Virus record (IMG/VR): IMGVR_UViG_3300040815_002406
Location: 1 to 26,925 of that record
Reading direction: 5' to 3' (one strand)
From: a virus
Length of the DNA: 26,925 nt
This document shows, piece after piece, positions 1 through 8,990 of the stretch (positions are counted from its first letter, which is position 1; the number at the start of each line of letters is the position of its first letter). The position numbers were made by a program, and so were the translations under genes. The notes under the pieces are model-generated. The model was not told the DNA's origin. It searched no databases and worked only from the letters and a program-made list of their open reading frames with translations.

Positions 1-1
1 T

Positions 2-511
2 TTGTTAATGAATCCAGAATTGGTTACCACTGATGTTAACAGTAGAAGTGTTTCAATGTTTTTTAATAGTATTAGTTCTATTAAGTCTTTTGAAGATAGT
101 TTGCCTTTGATTCAAATGATTGGTGAGGGTTCAGTTGGACCTGAGTTTAGTAGTTTGTTTACTATGTTTATTAATAATAAGTTGGATAAGATTATTTCGC
201 CTGAAAATATCTTTGAACAGGATGAAAAATATGTTATGACTACTTTGAAATCAGTTGTTGGTAAAGATGATAAATACAGAGCAGATATTGCTTCAACTTT
301 AGCTACTCGAATTGTTAATTATTTGGATGTTTATGCTAGTAAAAATAAAGTTGAAAAATCAACTATTGATAGAATTTCTAAAATAGTTAAAGAAGAAATT
401 TTTACAACAGACATTTGTTATAACATGGTTAGGTCAATTTATAATAATAATATTACTAAATTCAAAACTATGATTATGGATAAAGAATTAGTTAAATTTA
501 TAATGAAATAA
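2..511 (+). CDS. Probable MoxR-type AAA+ ATPase, C-terminal part (5' end outside window)
   Basis: The reading frame is open to the window edge and begins here with TTG, so this is most likely the C-terminal 169 or so residues of a longer protein. No Walker motifs remain. The helical text with RSVSMFFNSISSI and GEGSVGPEFSSLFTMFINN resembles, from memory, the C-terminal lid of MoxR-like AAA+ ATPases in T4-like phages. The context agrees: two genes downstream is a HExxH/VWA protein, the classical partner of MoxR ATPases, as in RavA-ViaA-like pairs. The stop lies 3 bases before the next start, so the two genes are probably co-transcribed. The expected role is ATP-driven remodelling of a protein complex, but the substrate is unknown. 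The upstream sequence should carry Walker A and B; without them this call fails. Confidence 0.6.
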   Translation: MLMNPELVTTDVNSRSVSMFFNSISSIKSFEDSLPLIQMIGEGSVGPEFSSLFTMFINNKLDKIISPENIFEQDEKYVMTTLKSVVGKDDKYRADIASTLATRIVNYLDVYASKNKVEKSTIDRISKIVKEEIFTTDICYNMVRSIYNNNITKFKTMIMDKELVKFIMK

Positions 512-514
512 GAT

Positions 515-1609
515 ATGAGTAAGTTTTTTAAAATAAGTTACCAATACAATACTTACCATCAACATCACCAGTTTAGTTTTTCATGGTGGGATAATAAGGG
601 TTTAGAGTATAAAGAAGTTAATACTTTAGAGAATAGAATACAAGATGTAAAAGAACTTCTTGAATTACCTGGTAGTGATATAAATGGAGAAATAATATAC
701 GCTGGTAAAGGTTCTAATGTACCTAGACATAAATTAAAATCATATATTGAAGAAAATAATTTGAAAAAAACATCTCGTGTTCAAACAGCAAATACTATTA
801 TTTTTGATAAAAAAGAAATTGAAGAAATTTTAAGTTATTATAAAAGAGCAAGTAAAGGGGAGTTTGCCTTTATTACATTTACTAAAGAGATTTGTGATAT
901 TATTATCAATTACCTCAATACAAGTAAAAATTTATATTCAAACTTCAAAGATGAAATTAAAAACAAAATAGGAAAAATATGGGCTATTGAAAAAGATAAA
1001 TACTATGATCTTCCTTCAGAGTTAAAGAAAATAATCAACTGTACAGAGTTTAAAGAATGTTATGAAATGCATAATTATAGAACTCAAAAGATTTTAGATA
1101 TTTGTAGTATTATTGATGTTTATTTAGAGGATAAAGATACTAAAAGTATTGTTTGGGATGATTATATGTTAGAAACTCTAAACTCAGAGGGTATTGAGTT
1201 GGATAAAGAATATCTAGAAACATTTCATAGTATGTTAAAAAGTAATGAAACATCAGATATCCAATTAGCTTTAGAAATGTTAACTAATATTAATCTTGAA
1301 AAAGATGGTTTATCAGTTGCTCTTCTTTTAAATGAATATAGAGATAAATTTGGTTGGGGTACAGGAACTCAAAGTCAAGCATATAAAACTTTAAACAAAT
1401 ATTTTAGCAGTAAAGGAATTCATTGGAAGGATGACTTTAGAGCCTTTTCAGCCGAGTTATGGAATCACTATGCTAATAATGATAATGCTAAAGAAATTAT
1501 AGGTAGTTTTGTTCAGAATAATATTAACAAATATTTGAATAGAACAGGTGATAAATTTGTTCTTCAAATTGATAATTTTAATCTTAGTTTGTATAAAAGG
1601 AATAAATAA
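515..1609 (+). CDS. Unknown 364-aa protein in the ATPase/VWA cassette
   Basis: I do not recognise this protein. It is Lys/Glu/Asn-rich and mostly helical by eye, with no signal peptide or membrane segment. The N-terminus has a His-rich stretch (YHQHHQFSFSWW, about residues 14-25). The C-terminal third includes FGWGTGTQSQAYKTL and a Trp-containing helical region. It starts 3 bases after the probable AAA+ ATPase and ends in a TAATG overlap with the VWA metallopeptidase-like gene. It is therefore embedded in that cassette and is probably expressed with it. The position suggests an adaptor or substrate-specificity factor for the ATPase-VWA pair, but that is only inference from context. Confidence 0.85.
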   Translation: MSKFFKISYQYNTYHQHHQFSFSWWDNKGLEYKEVNTLENRIQDVKELLELPGSDINGEIIYAGKGSNVPRHKLKSYIEENNLKKTSRVQTANTIIFDKKEIEEILSYYKRASKGEFAFITFTKEICDIIINYLNTSKNLYSNFKDEIKNKIGKIWAIEKDKYYDLPSELKKIINCTEFKECYEMHNYRTQKILDICSIIDVYLEDKDTKSIVWDDYMLETLNSEGIELDKEYLETFHSMLKSNETSDIQLALEMLTNINLEKDGLSVALLLNEYRDKFGWGTGTQSQAYKTLNKYFSSKGIHWKDDFRAFSAELWNHYANNDNAKEIIGSFVQNNINKYLNRTGDKFVLQIDNFNLSLYKRNK

Positions 1610-2790
1610 TGTTTAACATTTACGAAGAAATAACTAAATATTCTAAGCAGTTGATGCTTAAAGAACCATTTTATGGTTTATTCCTAATTAGTCTAAATAA
1701 AGAATTAGATAAAAATATTCCAACTGCTTGCGTTACTCCAGACAATATTAATGTTAAACTAAAAGTTAATCCTGAGTTTTGGGGTACATTAGATGATAAA
1801 ACTAAGTTAGGAATTCTTAAACATGAACTTCTCCATGTTGCTTTCTTTCATTTAAATAATTGGGACCGTTTTGATAATAAACGTGTCTATAATATGGCTG
1901 CTGATTTGGAAATTAATCAGTATATTAACTCTGATATGAAGGGTGAGGCTTGGGATGGTTTAGAAATTGATGGTCCTAATTTTGCTCCTCTTAATCTTGA
2001 ACCAAGAAAAGGTACAGGATATTATTATGGAAGGTTGATTGAAGAAATTGAAAACAATCCAGAAGGTGATATTGCTAAAATGGCTGAAGAAGGAGGTAGT
2101 TTTGTTATTGATGTTGAAGGTAGTGAGGGAATGAGTGAGGCAGAAAAGAAATTGATTGCTAAACAAATTGATCATCAGTTAAAAGAGATTGCAGAAAATT
2201 TAGAGAAAAAAGGAAGAGGTAGAGGTTTAATTCCAGGTGAAATGAAAGACTATATTGATAGTTTATTTGAGGTTGTTGAGCCTGTTATTGATTGGAAATC
2301 ATACCTAAGACGCTTTAATAGCATGTCTACTATGATCTATACTAAAAAAACTCGTAGGAAGCCAAATAGACGTTTCAATAATGGTCCTGCCCTTAAAATA
2401 AAGCCTAAGAAAAGAACATTAGTAGCTATTGATACTTCAGGTTCTGTTTCTAATGAAGACCTAAAAGAATTTTTTAATGAAATTCAACACATCTATAAAT
2501 CAGGAACTTATGTTGATATTATAGAATGTGATACTAAAATTCATAGGGTTTATGAGTATAAAGGAATTAAAGAAAATATTGAAGTACAAGGTAGAGGTGG
2601 CACTGACTTCGAACCGGTTATGCAGTACTTAAACCAACATAAAACGTCTTATGCCAACCTAATATACTTGACTGATGGAGAATGTGTCTCACCTGAGACT
2701 CAACCTATAAAACCAATTTTGTGGGTTCATTGCTCAGAAAGCAAAATAAATGAAGAACTTCCAGGTTCTAAAATTCAAATTAAAAGATAA
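1609..2790 (+). CDS. VWA-like metallopeptidase-domain protein (DUF2201 type)
   Basis: The 393-aa protein combines two recognisable parts. The N-terminal region has a zinc-protease-like motif HELLH (H72, E73, H76) followed by H81, as in DUF2201 putative metallopeptidases. The C-terminal region has a MIDAS-like DTSGS (residues 275-279) and a later TDGE, typical of a von Willebrand A fold that binds Mg2+. A charged linker separates them. Such proteins pair with MoxR AAA+ ATPases and act as partner or adaptor in protein remodelling. Whether the HExxH is catalytically active cannot be judged here. The start overlaps the previous stop as TAATG. It was probably translated together with the two preceding genes. 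Its role in the phage is unknown; control of host proteins or help in assembly are possibilities. Confidence 0.8.
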   Translation: MFNIYEEITKYSKQLMLKEPFYGLFLISLNKELDKNIPTACVTPDNINVKLKVNPEFWGTLDDKTKLGILKHELLHVAFFHLNNWDRFDNKRVYNMAADLEINQYINSDMKGEAWDGLEIDGPNFAPLNLEPRKGTGYYYGRLIEEIENNPEGDIAKMAEEGGSFVIDVEGSEGMSEAEKKLIAKQIDHQLKEIAENLEKKGRGRGLIPGEMKDYIDSLFEVVEPVIDWKSYLRRFNSMSTMIYTKKTRRKPNRRFNNGPALKIKPKKRTLVAIDTSGSVSNEDLKEFFNEIQHIYKSGTYVDIIECDTKIHRVYEYKGIKENIEVQGRGGTDFEPVMQYLNQHKTSYANLIYLTDGECVSPETQPIKPILWVHCSESKINEELPGSKIQIKR

Positions 2791-4621: not shown

Positions 4622-4707
4622 GCTGTTGTGGTGGAATAGGTAGACACGCGGGACTTAAAATCCCGTGACCCGAAAAGGTCGTGCCGGTTCGATCCCGGCC
4701 AGCAGTA
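4622..4707 (+). tRNA. tRNA-Leu (UAA)
   Basis: The cloverleaf is complete. The acceptor GCTGTTG pairs with CAGCAGT using two G-U pairs. The anticodon loop holds TAA. A long variable arm typical of class II tRNA-Leu follows, then T-arm GCCGG/CCGGC around TTCGATC. The discriminator is A4707 and CCA is not encoded. It reads TTA (and TTG by wobble), the main Leu codon of the late genes. Confidence 0.93.
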
Positions 4708-4756
4708 CTAGGAGACTCACGTAGTTCGTTCTTTAATCTATTGAATTACCAATGTT

Positions 4757-4830
<74 letters not shown>

Positions 4831-4838
4831 CAAAATTA

Positions 4839-4911
4839 GCCACAATAGCTCAGTTGGTAGAGCTTCTGATTTGTAATCAGATGGTCGGCGGTTCGAGTCC
4901 GTCTTGTGGCT
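4839..4911 (+). tRNA. tRNA-Thr (UGU)
   Basis: Acceptor GCCACAA pairs perfectly with TTGTGGC. The anticodon stem TCTGA/TCAGA encloses TTTGTAA with anticodon TGT. The discriminator is T. It lies only 8 bases after tRNA-Pro, so the transcripts are likely processed from one precursor. Confidence 0.94.
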
Positions 4912-4916
4912 CATTA

Positions 4917-5001
4917 GGAGAGATGGCAGAGCGGTCGAATGCGCCAGTCTTGAAAACTGATGACTGTAACAGGTCCGGGGGTTCGAATCCCTCTCTCTCC
5001 G
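4917..5001 (+). tRNA. tRNA-Ser (UGA)
   Basis: Acceptor GGAGAGA pairs with TCTCTCC. The anticodon loop CTTGAAA holds TGA, and a long class II variable arm is present. T-stem GGGGG/CCCTC encloses TTCGAAT, and the discriminator is G. It is 5 bases after tRNA-Thr and the last of the first tRNA group. Confidence 0.92.
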
Positions 5002-5067
5002 CTGCCAACTGAAGACAGAAGAAGAATGTTTAGGTTCCCATGCAAAGCGACCCGCCTAAGCATAAAA

Positions 5068-5091
5068 AAACCCGAGTGTAAACTCGGGTTT
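5068..5091. terminator. Bidirectional Rho-independent terminator
   Basis: AAACCCGAGT (5068-5077) pairs perfectly with ACTCGGGTTT (5082-5091) around a GTAA loop. A-rich sequence precedes it and T-rich sequence follows, so it can stop the tRNA transcript on the plus strand and the convergent gene on the minus strand. It lies at the only convergent junction in the window. Confidence 0.88.
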
Positions 5092-5113
5092 CTTCTTTCT
5101 ATATTAATATTGT

Positions 5114-5587
5114 TTAAGGAGCAGGAACATAACTATAAGAATGGAACCAGCTTGCCTGTCCTATCTTAAGTATACAATCTGATACACTACTGCATCCTGC
5201 TGGGTTTGCTGGAGAACCTGGATTTACAGTTCCATCAACTGCATAATTTTTTAGAATAAAATCAGCTGTTCCAATAAAAGCAGCATCTGTTAAAGCAGGA
5301 GCACCTGTGGCTGGATTTAATGATTTAAAGAAATGAGGTTGGTCAACAGGAGGATTTCCAGCACCATGAGCATCTTTTGCGTTTGGAATAGCAAAAATAT
5401 AAGCTTGAACATTTACTGCTGCTGGGCTACCATAGAAATAAGTATCTGTTGTAGATTGTGGAACATCATTGTTCCATGCTCTTGAACCTGAAAGATTTCC
5501 TATAAAGAAACTTCCTGTAGTAGCTGTGTTTGAAGGAGCTGCTCCACCACTATAGTTAGGAGCATATGTAATTGCGTATTGTGCCAT
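5114..5587 (-). CDS. Lone reverse-strand protein, possibly a virion or surface protein
   Basis: This is the only supported gene on the minus strand. The 157-aa product is rich in Gly, Ala, Pro, Ser and Asn, with only four Lys and one Arg, and carries two cysteines near the C-terminus (GCSSVSDC). No signal peptide or membrane segment is clear. SGS-type turns (NLSGSRAW) resemble those in the tail proteins of this window, suggesting a beta-rich structural or decoration protein; I do not recognise a family. It has a private unit: a near match to the late motif (TATGTATA, 5604-5611) 16 bases upstream, and a shared bidirectional terminator downstream. Its place inside a tRNA cluster suggests a moron-like insertion. 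Confidence 0.72.
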   Translation of the reverse strand: MAQYAITYAPNYSGGAAPSNTATTGSFFIGNLSGSRAWNNDVPQSTTDTYFYGSPAAVNVQAYIFAIPNAKDAHGAGNPPVDQPHFFKSLNPATGAPALTDAAFIGTADFILKNYAVDGTVNPGSPANPAGCSSVSDCILKIGQASWFHSYSYVPAP

Positions 5588-5603
5588 CTGTAGATTATTT
5601 TAT

Positions 5604-5611
5604 TATACATA
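5604..5611 (-). promoter_or_regulatory. Candidate late promoter on the minus strand (TATGTATA)
   Basis: Read on the minus strand, AATATGTATAATAAAATAA lies 16 bases upstream of the ATG. It differs from the TATTTATA core by one base and keeps the same flanks. The spacing is identical to that before the tail gene at 22730. Confidence 0.4.
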
Positions 5612-5649
5612 TTTGGCTCTCATAAAAAAGTAAATTATATTCAGATCAT

Positions 5650-5723
5650 GTTCTCGTAGCTCAGCTGGATAGAGCAACTGCCTTCTAAGCAGTAGGTCAT
5701 AGGTTCGAATCCTATCGGGAATA
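5650..5723 (+). tRNA. tRNA-Arg (UCU)
   Basis: Acceptor GTTCTCG pairs with CGGGAAT using two G-U pairs. Anticodon stem ACTGC/GCAGT encloses CTTCTAA with anticodon TCT. T-stem ATAGG/CCTAT encloses TTCGAAT. The discriminator is A. It reads AGA, the dominant Arg codon of the late genes. Confidence 0.93.
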
Positions 5724-5724
5724 C

Positions 5725-6088
5725 AAAGGAGTTCTTTGACATAATAAAAGAAAGGAAAAAAATATGGAAATAATTTTAGCTTTTGGTTTGGGAGTGGTAT
5801 TAGTTATTAATATTGTAATAGTTAATATGGCTCTAAAGTCAAATAAACAAATTAATGAATTAAACAAAATTGTTGATAGTGAAATTCAGTCTTCAACTAA
5901 TATTAATGACTCTATTTATCGTGAGATAGATAAAATTAATGGTAAAATTGATTCTCGTGTCGATAAACTAAATGATGTTTTGACTAGAGAAATAAGTGAA
6001 ACAAATCGTAAAGTAGATTTTTTGAGAAAGTCTCTTGGAAAGGATTACTTTTAAGTAAATTAAATTAAACCCGTTATTGAACTCCTTT
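5725..6088. repeat. 10-bp inverted repeat flanking a small gene between two tRNAs
   Basis: AAAGGAGTTC (5725-5734) and its exact reverse complement GAACTCCTTT (6079-6088) bracket the gene at 5764. The left arm starts 2 bases after tRNA-Arg, and the right arm ends 3 bases before tRNA-Met. It could help fold the precursor for tRNA processing, or mark an insertion; chance is also possible. Confidence 0.4.
5764..6054 (+). CDS. Small membrane-anchored coiled-coil protein
   Basis: The 96-aa protein starts with an uncharged hydrophobic helix (about residues 3-25, IILAFGLGVVLVINIVIVNM). A charged region with heptad-like spacing follows to the end, suggesting a single-pass inner-membrane protein with a coiled coil. 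No family is recognised. It sits alone between tRNA-Arg and tRNA-Met, flanked by a 10-bp inverted repeat. The upstream stretch AAAGGAAAAAAAT is A-rich. The topology resembles an i-spanin, but the gene is outside the lysis cassette, so that role is speculative. Confidence 0.7.
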   Translation: MEIILAFGLGVVLVINIVIVNMALKSNKQINELNKIVDSEIQSSTNINDSIYREIDKINGKIDSRVDKLNDVLTREISETNRKVDFLRKSLGKDYF

Positions 6089-6090
6089 AT

Positions 6091-6164
6091 GGACCTTTAG
6101 CTCAGTTGGTCAGAGCAGCGCACTCATAATGCGAAGGTCATAGGTTCAAGCCCTATAAGGTCCA
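6091..6164 (+). tRNA. tRNA with CAU anticodon (Met, or Ile after lysidine modification)
   Basis: Acceptor GGACCTT pairs perfectly with AAGGTCC. The anticodon loop CTCATAA holds CAT. The anticodon stem has one G-A mismatch at its outer end. T-stem ATAGG/CCTAT encloses TTCAAGC, and the discriminator is A. The first pair is G-C and the stem lacks the three G-C pairs of an initiator, so it is not tRNA-fMet. Elongator Met and Ile2 cannot be separated here. Confidence 0.9.
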
Positions 6165-6192
6165 CCGCAGTCAGATGTTGTAGCTACGGCCA

Positions 6193-8547: not shown

Positions 8548-8990
8548 TGTATGGATATATGGACATAAATAAGATATTTAACTTATTTGACTCCGGTTCT
8601 GAAGATAAAATCAAAGAAGATACACAAATTGTGTTTGTCGACTTTAAAGAACATCCTGCCTATTGGTTAGGAATGTTTAAAAAATTGATTCAAAATCATA
8701 AGCTATTTAAAAGAAAAATAGTTTCATTCCTAGAAAAGTCAGACCCAGAAATAGAATTAGGAGATTTAGACCTGGTAGGTGATGACCTTGCTTATGAAAG
8801 AGCATGGTACTATGCTTCAAAATTTGATCCTAGTTTGGAGATACATAAAGAGTCCATTAACCTTATATTAGATGATTACCTTGAAAAAGCCATTAATGAA
8901 ACTATACTTTACTTTCAGGCCAAAGAAGAGTATGAAAAATGCGCTCATTTGAAGAAAATTTTAGATGAGGTAAAGAAACTTCAAGGATAA
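8547..8990 (+). CDS. Hypothetical protein with a UVR-like C-terminal motif
   Basis: The 147-aa protein is acidic and mostly helical. Its C-terminus (about residues 122-145), with FQAKEEYEKCAHLKKILDEV, resembles the UVR motif of UvrB/UvrC and related proteins, which mediates protein-protein contacts. The rest has a PAYWLGMFKKLI stretch but no family I recognise. Translation may begin at 8547 or at the in-frame ATG 12 bases downstream (MDINKIF). The upstream hairpin covers the first of these. Confidence 0.72.
   Translation: MYGYMDINKIFNLFDSGSEDKIKEDTQIVFVDFKEHPAYWLGMFKKLIQNHKLFKRKIVSFLEKSDPEIELGDLDLVGDDLAYERAWYYASKFDPSLEIHKESINLILDDYLEKAINETILYFQAKEEYEKCAHLKKILDEVKKLQG

Follow-up and report, generated by a model that had tools for sequence, protein, structure and literature searches.

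A BRCT-like third component predicted in a phage cassette of a MoxR-type ATPase and a metallopeptidase-VWA protein

The 26,925-base stretch of viral DNA analysed here (the window; IMG/VR virus record IMGVR_UViG_3300040815_002406) starts with three co-directional genes in its list of open reading frames (ORFs): the end of an AAA+ ATPase gene, a gene for a 364-AA protein that we call MID, and a gene for a metallopeptidase-VWA protein. Pairs of this ATPase and VWA protein are already known from phages; MID is a third component, BRCT-like by fold prediction and constant within a clade, for which we found no earlier description. We propose that the cassette encodes a three-part, ATP-driven remodelling machine in which MID would be a BRCT-type adaptor and the target would likely belong to DNA metabolism, a reading to which we give a probability of about one half. 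The features of the cassette are as follows.

1..511 (ORF 2–511), plus strand: AAA+ ATPase, C-terminal part (residues 221–389 of 389), open at the 5′ edge of the window
515..1609, plus strand: MID, 364 AA, predicted BRCT-like and C-terminal helical domains (from the ORF, an 84-member alignment and an AlphaFold2 model)
686..808, plus strand: MID residues 58–98, predicted first half of the BRCT-like core (β1-α1-β2-β3) with S67, R71 and K75 (from the AlphaFold2 model of residues 1–228, structural alignment to BRCT-bearing chains, and conservation)
1079..1192, plus strand: MID residues 189–226, predicted second half of the BRCT-like core (α2-β4-α3) with R189; putative division, from the range aligned in BRCT rows and the secondary structure of the AlphaFold2 model
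1190..1540, plus strand: MID residues 226–342, predicted C-terminal helical domain, ARM/HEAT-like over 226–306 (from AlphaFold2 and conservation)
1609..2790, plus strand: metallopeptidase-VWA protein (DUF2201_N and DUF2201), 393 AA (Pfam; phrog_1314)
1822..1836, plus strand: HELLH zinc-peptidase motif, VWA protein residues 72–76 (from the sequence)
2431..2445, plus strand: DTSGS of the metal ion-dependent adhesion site (MIDAS), VWA protein residues 275–279 (from the sequence)
2602–2604 and 2674–2676, plus strand: further MIDAS residues T332 and D356, assigned by the DxSxS-T-D pattern

A preliminary description of the window had pictured these genes as tightly packed, and the ORFs at 2–511, 515–1609 and 1609–2790 bear this out. 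The TAA of the first gene ends at 511 and the ATG of MID starts at 515, leaving a spacing of 3 bases, and the MID and VWA genes overlap as TAATG at 1607–1611. The arrangement of the trio is far beyond chance, because it recurs in dozens of distinct viral contigs. We selected loci by the VWA alignment only and kept the best 80 of 594 confirmed stretches; MID was found within the cassette in 59 of these 80, and the other 21 were cut by a contig end, the edge lying at most 147 bases from the core genes on the side where related loci would place MID. No uncut locus among these best 80 of 594 lacked MID, down to 44% VWA identity. Selection by the AAA+ protein gave MID in 15 of 16 loci, the remaining one being cut, and selection by MID itself gave 73 loci, with both partners in 70, one partner in three and MID without any partner in none. 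In seven long MID-bearing contigs MID occurred at the cassette only, plus a few short matches nearby.

The picture differs among named phages. With the VWA protein as tblastn query, 527 of 50,697 phage records were matched, all below 60% identity and at about 27–30% among the 60 matches listed. A profile of 84 MIDs found no MID in any of the five pair-bearing named phages examined from these 527 records, and tblastn of four different MIDs against the 50,697 named phages gave no match. The ATPase gene directly adjoins the VWA gene in S-TIM5, MTATph1, RM378 and AR9, and a gap separates the two in the N4-like phage YH6. By profile, none of the three genes was detected in Flavobacterium phage immuto_2-6A or Microcystis phage Mel-JY01, which are among the nearest named phages by terminase, and one scan of bacterial and archaeal genome contigs with a 14-row MID alignment returned no MID relative. 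Since every intact VWA-selected locus has MID, and the profile detected none in five named pair-bearing phages, MID seems to be an obligate member inside one clade without belonging to MoxR-VWA pairs in general; the co-occurrence raised in the preliminary description thus held in every uncut VWA-selected locus but did not extend to these five phages. In Vibrio phage Va1 (MK387337) the AAA+ match (~28 kb) and the VWA match (~178 kb) are unlinked.

The three genes occur in three orders, AAA+-MID-VWA (A-M-V, including the window), M-V-A and V-A-M, which are the rotations of a single cycle; none of the mirror-image orders was observed. For a tree we joined the AAA+ and VWA proteins of the 89 of 109 distinct loci in which both are complete; five of the 89 were without MID and were excluded from the order count. 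Each of the 84 remaining loci has one of the three orders, and the tree needs two changes, the minimum, against a mean of 37.4 for shuffled orders. One branch sets the M-V-A loci apart and another the A-M-V loci, with Shimodaira-Hasegawa-like approximate likelihood ratio test values of 100 and 95, respectively. Since only two changes are inferred, the contiguity through rearrangement is support for functional linkage rather than proof of it. The rotated orders could be explained by tandem duplication followed by loss.

MID evolves fast. Mean identity over the 66 pairs of 12 loci was 83.1% for the AAA+ protein, 71.3% for the VWA protein and 36.9% for MID, within which the N-terminal 54 residues are the least conserved (22.3%) and residues 226–306 the most (53.7%). 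The MID family itself comprised 145 ORFs, reduced to 84 at 92% identity, with the window representing L016. Tandem MID copies are present in many V-A-M loci (L070, L075, L081, L107 and others), 18 of the 89 tree loci in all. Small ORFs of about 90–160 AA that resemble only the C-terminal domain of MID lie in or beside many cassettes (e.g., L103:8392-8874, L066:2870-3220 and L080:5583-5999) and were not seen in L004 and L005, contigs of the window's own lineage; a possible fourth component may be encoded there.

What MID might be was approached through profiles and structural models. The protein from the window matched no Pfam, PHROG or NCBIfam family at E ≤ 0.001, and the 84 MIDs as a group matched no Pfam or PHROG family. 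The best match of the family profile to solved structures was the BRCT domain of PARP1 (E 0.021 and 0.037), which an N-terminal alignment of 79 of the 84 MIDs, five distant rows being left out, repeated at E 0.032 and 0.05. AlphaFold2 gave a mean predicted local distance difference test score of 91.2 for whole MID and 92.4 for residues 1–228. When the N-terminal model was run through the VIA aligner, BRCT-bearing chains took 12 of the first 13 rows, with Z from 6.2 to 4.0; BRCT is named in six of the 12 rows, and the row ranges of LigA, Rfc1 and Lig4 are presumably BRCT domains. These rows align 72–79 residues across the range ~58–226, which suggests a BRCT-like core interrupted by an insert of about 90 residues between β3 and α2. 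We also searched 55 MID-bearing contigs (2.83 Mb) in six frames with Pfam BRCT and obtained 10 hits; nine of them, placed by hand from the contig ranges, fall inside MID genes, which make up 2.6% of the sequence (binomial P ~6e-14). Outside the cassette, AR9 carries a BRCT match over the Pfam cut-off; none was found in the other six named phages.

Several observations weigh against a BRCT assignment. Scanned singly at E ≤ 0.01, only two of the 84 MIDs matched Pfam BRCT and one matched BRCT_2, and in one member the unrelated Spa1_C scored better than BRCT. The nine hits inside MID genes all lie below the Pfam cut-off of 21.3 bits (best 18.2), 46 of the 55 contigs have no BRCT hit in MID, and the tenth hit, in G032, is outside MID. 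Foldseek returned nothing at E ≤ 0.001 for the full-length or the N-terminal model, and with the latter PARP BRCT chains came no higher than ranks 25 and 41. All VIA rows have Z below 8; the first non-BRCT row has Z 4.3, which only the top three rows exceed by more than 1, so that under the rule of the aligner most BRCT rows count as tied with it. Because all nine hits are below the cut-off, we do not regard MID as a member of Pfam BRCT; its N-terminal half is predicted to be BRCT-like. Ten Pfam families, eight of them unrelated to BRCT, each matched one or two of the 84 MIDs at E ≤ 0.01 and were not used as assignments. The Foldseek matches to ketol-acid reductoisomerase, zeta toxin and methyltransferases were treated as noise, with E above 0.001, a query template-modelling score below 0.2 and a root-mean-square deviation mostly above 10. 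A reading of MID as a GIY-YIG nuclease, from the stretch IYVGKGSN in close relatives of the window, was rejected: most of 14 aligned homologues have lost the motif, only a few close members show a YVGKG-like stretch, and a Pfam scan of the 84 MIDs at E ≤ 0.01 gave GIY-YIG for none of them. The BFVD database gave four matches at E ≤ 0.001, all of them uncharacterised phage proteins.

By position, S67, R71, K75 and R189 form a possible phosphate pocket of the BRCT-like core (compared with BRCT phosphate pockets as described in PMC10386641). All 47 closer MIDs have R71 and K75, 45 have S67 and 40 have R189. Two points count against the pocket: R189 is absent from seven of these 47, and the set is not kept in the 37 distant MIDs. 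The C-terminal domain is helical and gave ARM/HEAT rows with Z up to 7.3 over residues 226–306, which may reflect only a common helical arrangement; M240, S243, E254 and N258 are kept in 47 of 47 closer homologues. Instead of 'unknown', as in the preliminary description, the middle gene can thus be labelled 'BRCT-like domain plus helical-repeat-like domain', the BRCT fold being a prediction.

The first gene of the window is a fragment which alone has no Pfam match. Contig L004 agrees with the window at 2,787 of 2,790 bases over the cassette and at 8,784 of 8,787 over the full overlap (99.9%), and extends upstream of it, so that the whole AAA+ gene can be read at L004:1729-2898 (389 AA). The Walker A (GESGIGKT) and Walker B (ILLLDDWNRAD) motifs are present in this protein, off the window, and N173 and R191, which we take to be sensor 1 and the arginine finger, are invariant in 13 of 13 aligned homologues. 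The protein barely exceeds the cut-off of Pfam AAA_5 (22.6 vs. 22 bits) and stays below that of AAA_3 (17.8 vs. 27 bits); its best PHROG match is phrog_1297 'ATPase', and the closest solved sequences are midasin AAA+ modules. The earlier reading of the fragment as a probable MoxR ATPase C-terminus was therefore correct, and the upstream sequence does hold the AAA+ domain. In some loci the AAA+ gene is broken by an insert of ~1.0–1.5 kb; Rfam places a group I intron in L085 (3604-3830) and L101 (2791-3027), and the gene is split also in L098 and L181. The representative of the family at the insert sites matches GIY-YIG and NUMOD. In close relatives of the window a T5orf172 (GIY-YIG-type) gene is found just upstream of the AAA+ gene (L004:914-1429, L006:2999-3487 and L007:2724-3266).

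For the third gene, matches to Pfam DUF2201 (E 1.5e-18, 67.5 bits, cut-off 26.4) and DUF2201_N (E 5.8e-18, 65.9 bits, cut-off 23.2) were clear, as was the match to phrog_1314 (E 7.8e-69). All 14 aligned homologues have the HExxH and MIDAS (DxSxS..T..D) residues without any change. The product is a DUF2201 metallopeptidase-VWA protein with intact motifs, just as the HELLH and DTSGS sequences had first suggested, and peptidase activity is predicted for it. PHROG 1314 is labelled 'HNH endonuclease', a name which many phage records carry for the VWA gene. This is probably a propagated mislabel, because Pfam shows a DUF2201 metallopeptidase-VWA protein and the GenBank record of AR9 describes the homologue as a zincin-like protease fused to vWA. 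A family of ~230 AA follows the VWA gene in L006:7842-8564 and in 25 other loci, many of them A-M-V, and is not in the window; it is nucleotidyltransferase-like by eye only.

A MoxR AAA+-vWA pair in which the vWA protein is fused to an N-terminal metallopeptidase has been described from group 2.2 jumbo phages (Iyer et al. 2021, PMC7824862). The likeness to our cassette lies in this pairing; in the available parts of that paper no third gene is reported, and MID is specific to the present clade. The preliminary description was fair in calling the role of MoxR-VWA pairs in phages poorly understood; the pair itself had been described. Our literature search, which left subscription papers mostly outside its reach, found no MoxR-VWA-BRCT phage system beyond that pair. 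Gp24 and gp25 of N4-like phages (Schitoviridae) are core genes of the group, annotated as 'unknown' and 'vWFA domain' (PMC4193335), and the annotation of YH6 likens its pair to them (N4 gp24-like ATPase, N4 gp25-like gene); YH6 differs in having no MID match, a VWA protein 27.6% identical to that of the window, and the gap between its two genes. With NorQ-NorD, RavA-ViaA and CbbQ-CbbO the cassette shares a MoxR ring and a MIDAS-bearing VWA co-factor, but the phage VWA protein is fused to a zinc-peptidase-like domain and specificity may be carried by a separate BRCT-like protein. For NorQD it has been described that the VWA domain inserts a finger into the pore of the ring and that activity depends on the MIDAS residues, the presumed binding site of the target (PMC9976466, PMC13036017); for NorD, specificity has been proposed to lie in the non-conserved N-terminal region (PMC9976466). 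MID is predicted to resemble BRCT domains (PARP1, BRCA1, LigA, Rfc1) in the fold and residue pattern of its N-terminal core, and differs from them in the ~90-residue insert, an N-terminal extension, the weak sequence match and its presence here in viral contigs only.

Because MoxR rings act via a VWA partner and the phage VWA protein keeps its MIDAS and peptidase motifs, we interpret MID as an adaptor in its own right, one that determines the target. In such a machine the AAA+ protein would form a MoxR-type ring, as expected from its family, and the VWA protein, with its zinc-peptidase domain, would dock on the ring as in NorQ-NorD. MID would be the clade-specific third subunit: its BRCT-like domain may bind a partner, possibly via the phosphate pocket, its C-terminal helical domain would contact the machine, and MID would in this way guide motor and peptidase to their target, which would lie in the replication, recombination or packaging of phage DNA. 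That the middle gene is a specificity factor, as first suggested from the sequence, is made plausible by the BRCT-like fold, the fast evolution and the genes staying together despite the change of order. A narrower form, in which a new, phage-only three-part machine uses MID as a BRCT-type sensor of phosphates or DNA ends to direct the MoxR-metallopeptidase-VWA motor to replication, recombination or packaging complexes, we consider doubtful.

The choice of pathway depends on genome context and timing, for which we scanned one representative per neighbour family over the 109 loci. Primase (37 loci), exonuclease VIII (29, at a median distance of 3 bases), DnaB-like helicase (21), RusA (19) and Sak4 (12) were found as neighbours, only in V-A-M or cut loci. 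In the likeliest rival, to which we allow a limited but real chance, the pair would be a virion-assembly chaperone that acts late in infection by remodelling and cleaving structural proteins, and MID would serve a capsid or tail protein as scaffold or adaptor; this rival is partly compatible with an adaptor role and differs in the pathway. Virion assembly is the published proposal for the jumbo-phage pair, made by analogy with Acidianus two-tailed virus (PMC7824862), and in roseophage RPP1 the gp24/gp25 homologues have structural genes close by (PMC4193335). Our own data add to this a terminase ~3.2 kb downstream in 18 of 109 loci (11 A-M-V, four V-A-M, three cut), a position that fits packaging as well as virion assembly, and baseplate genes 11–14 kb downstream of the cassette in the window; the terminase and the RPP1 neighbourhood count against our preference for DNA metabolism. 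On the other side stand the replication and recombination genes around V-A-M loci, an early promoter annotated before the AAA gene of the AR9 pair, where 41 of 43 virion proteins are late (PMC5312081), and the middle transcription of N4 gp24/gp25 (PMC4193335). Given the V-A-M context, and given that distant phages express the pair at early or middle times, DNA metabolism (replication, recombination or packaging) seems more likely than a purely late virion part, with a context that differs by clade.

Other roles for MID can be set against that of an adaptor. MoxR-VWA genes commonly lie beside their target, as in NorQD and CbbQO, and MID might accordingly be the client and effector that the machine activates or cleaves; that it is the fastest-evolving member and was never partnerless in 73 loci agrees with this, whereas the tandem copies and a BRCT-like plus helical-repeat-like architecture with no obvious active or metal site do not, and we think this unlikely. 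Fast evolution, together with a pair that distant relatives express at early or middle times, would also suit a sensor or adaptor that aims the peptidase-motor at host proteins in host takeover or anti-defence. This we judge quite improbable: MID has no defence homology in Pfam or NCBIfam (the PADLOC library was not scanned) and is kept in each informative locus, and typical anti-defence genes are less constant. The two order changes on the tree amount to few independent events, which leaves some room for MID as an unrelated gene hitch-hiking in the operon; with the genes contiguous through both changes and MID present in all uncut loci among the 80 VWA-selected ones, we hold this to be very improbable.

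If MID is indeed an adaptor, its separate, fast-evolving gene next to a motor that is strongly conserved would make a tractable system for target choice, which is a large part of the MoxR-VWA mechanism; these machines are widespread and their mechanism has been called poorly understood (PMC13036017). The reading would also point to a function class for a phage protein family whose members share no Pfam or PHROG match, and with the trio the virion-assembly role published as a proposal for the pair can be tested.

Elsewhere in the window, at 4622–6166, there are six tRNA genes (Leu, Pro, Thr, Ser, Arg and Met). Between tRNA genes lies an antisense ORF of 157 AA (5114–5587, minus strand), with no Pfam or PHROG match and a local GC content of 39–41% vs. 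31% for the window; its region is 81% identical in L005.

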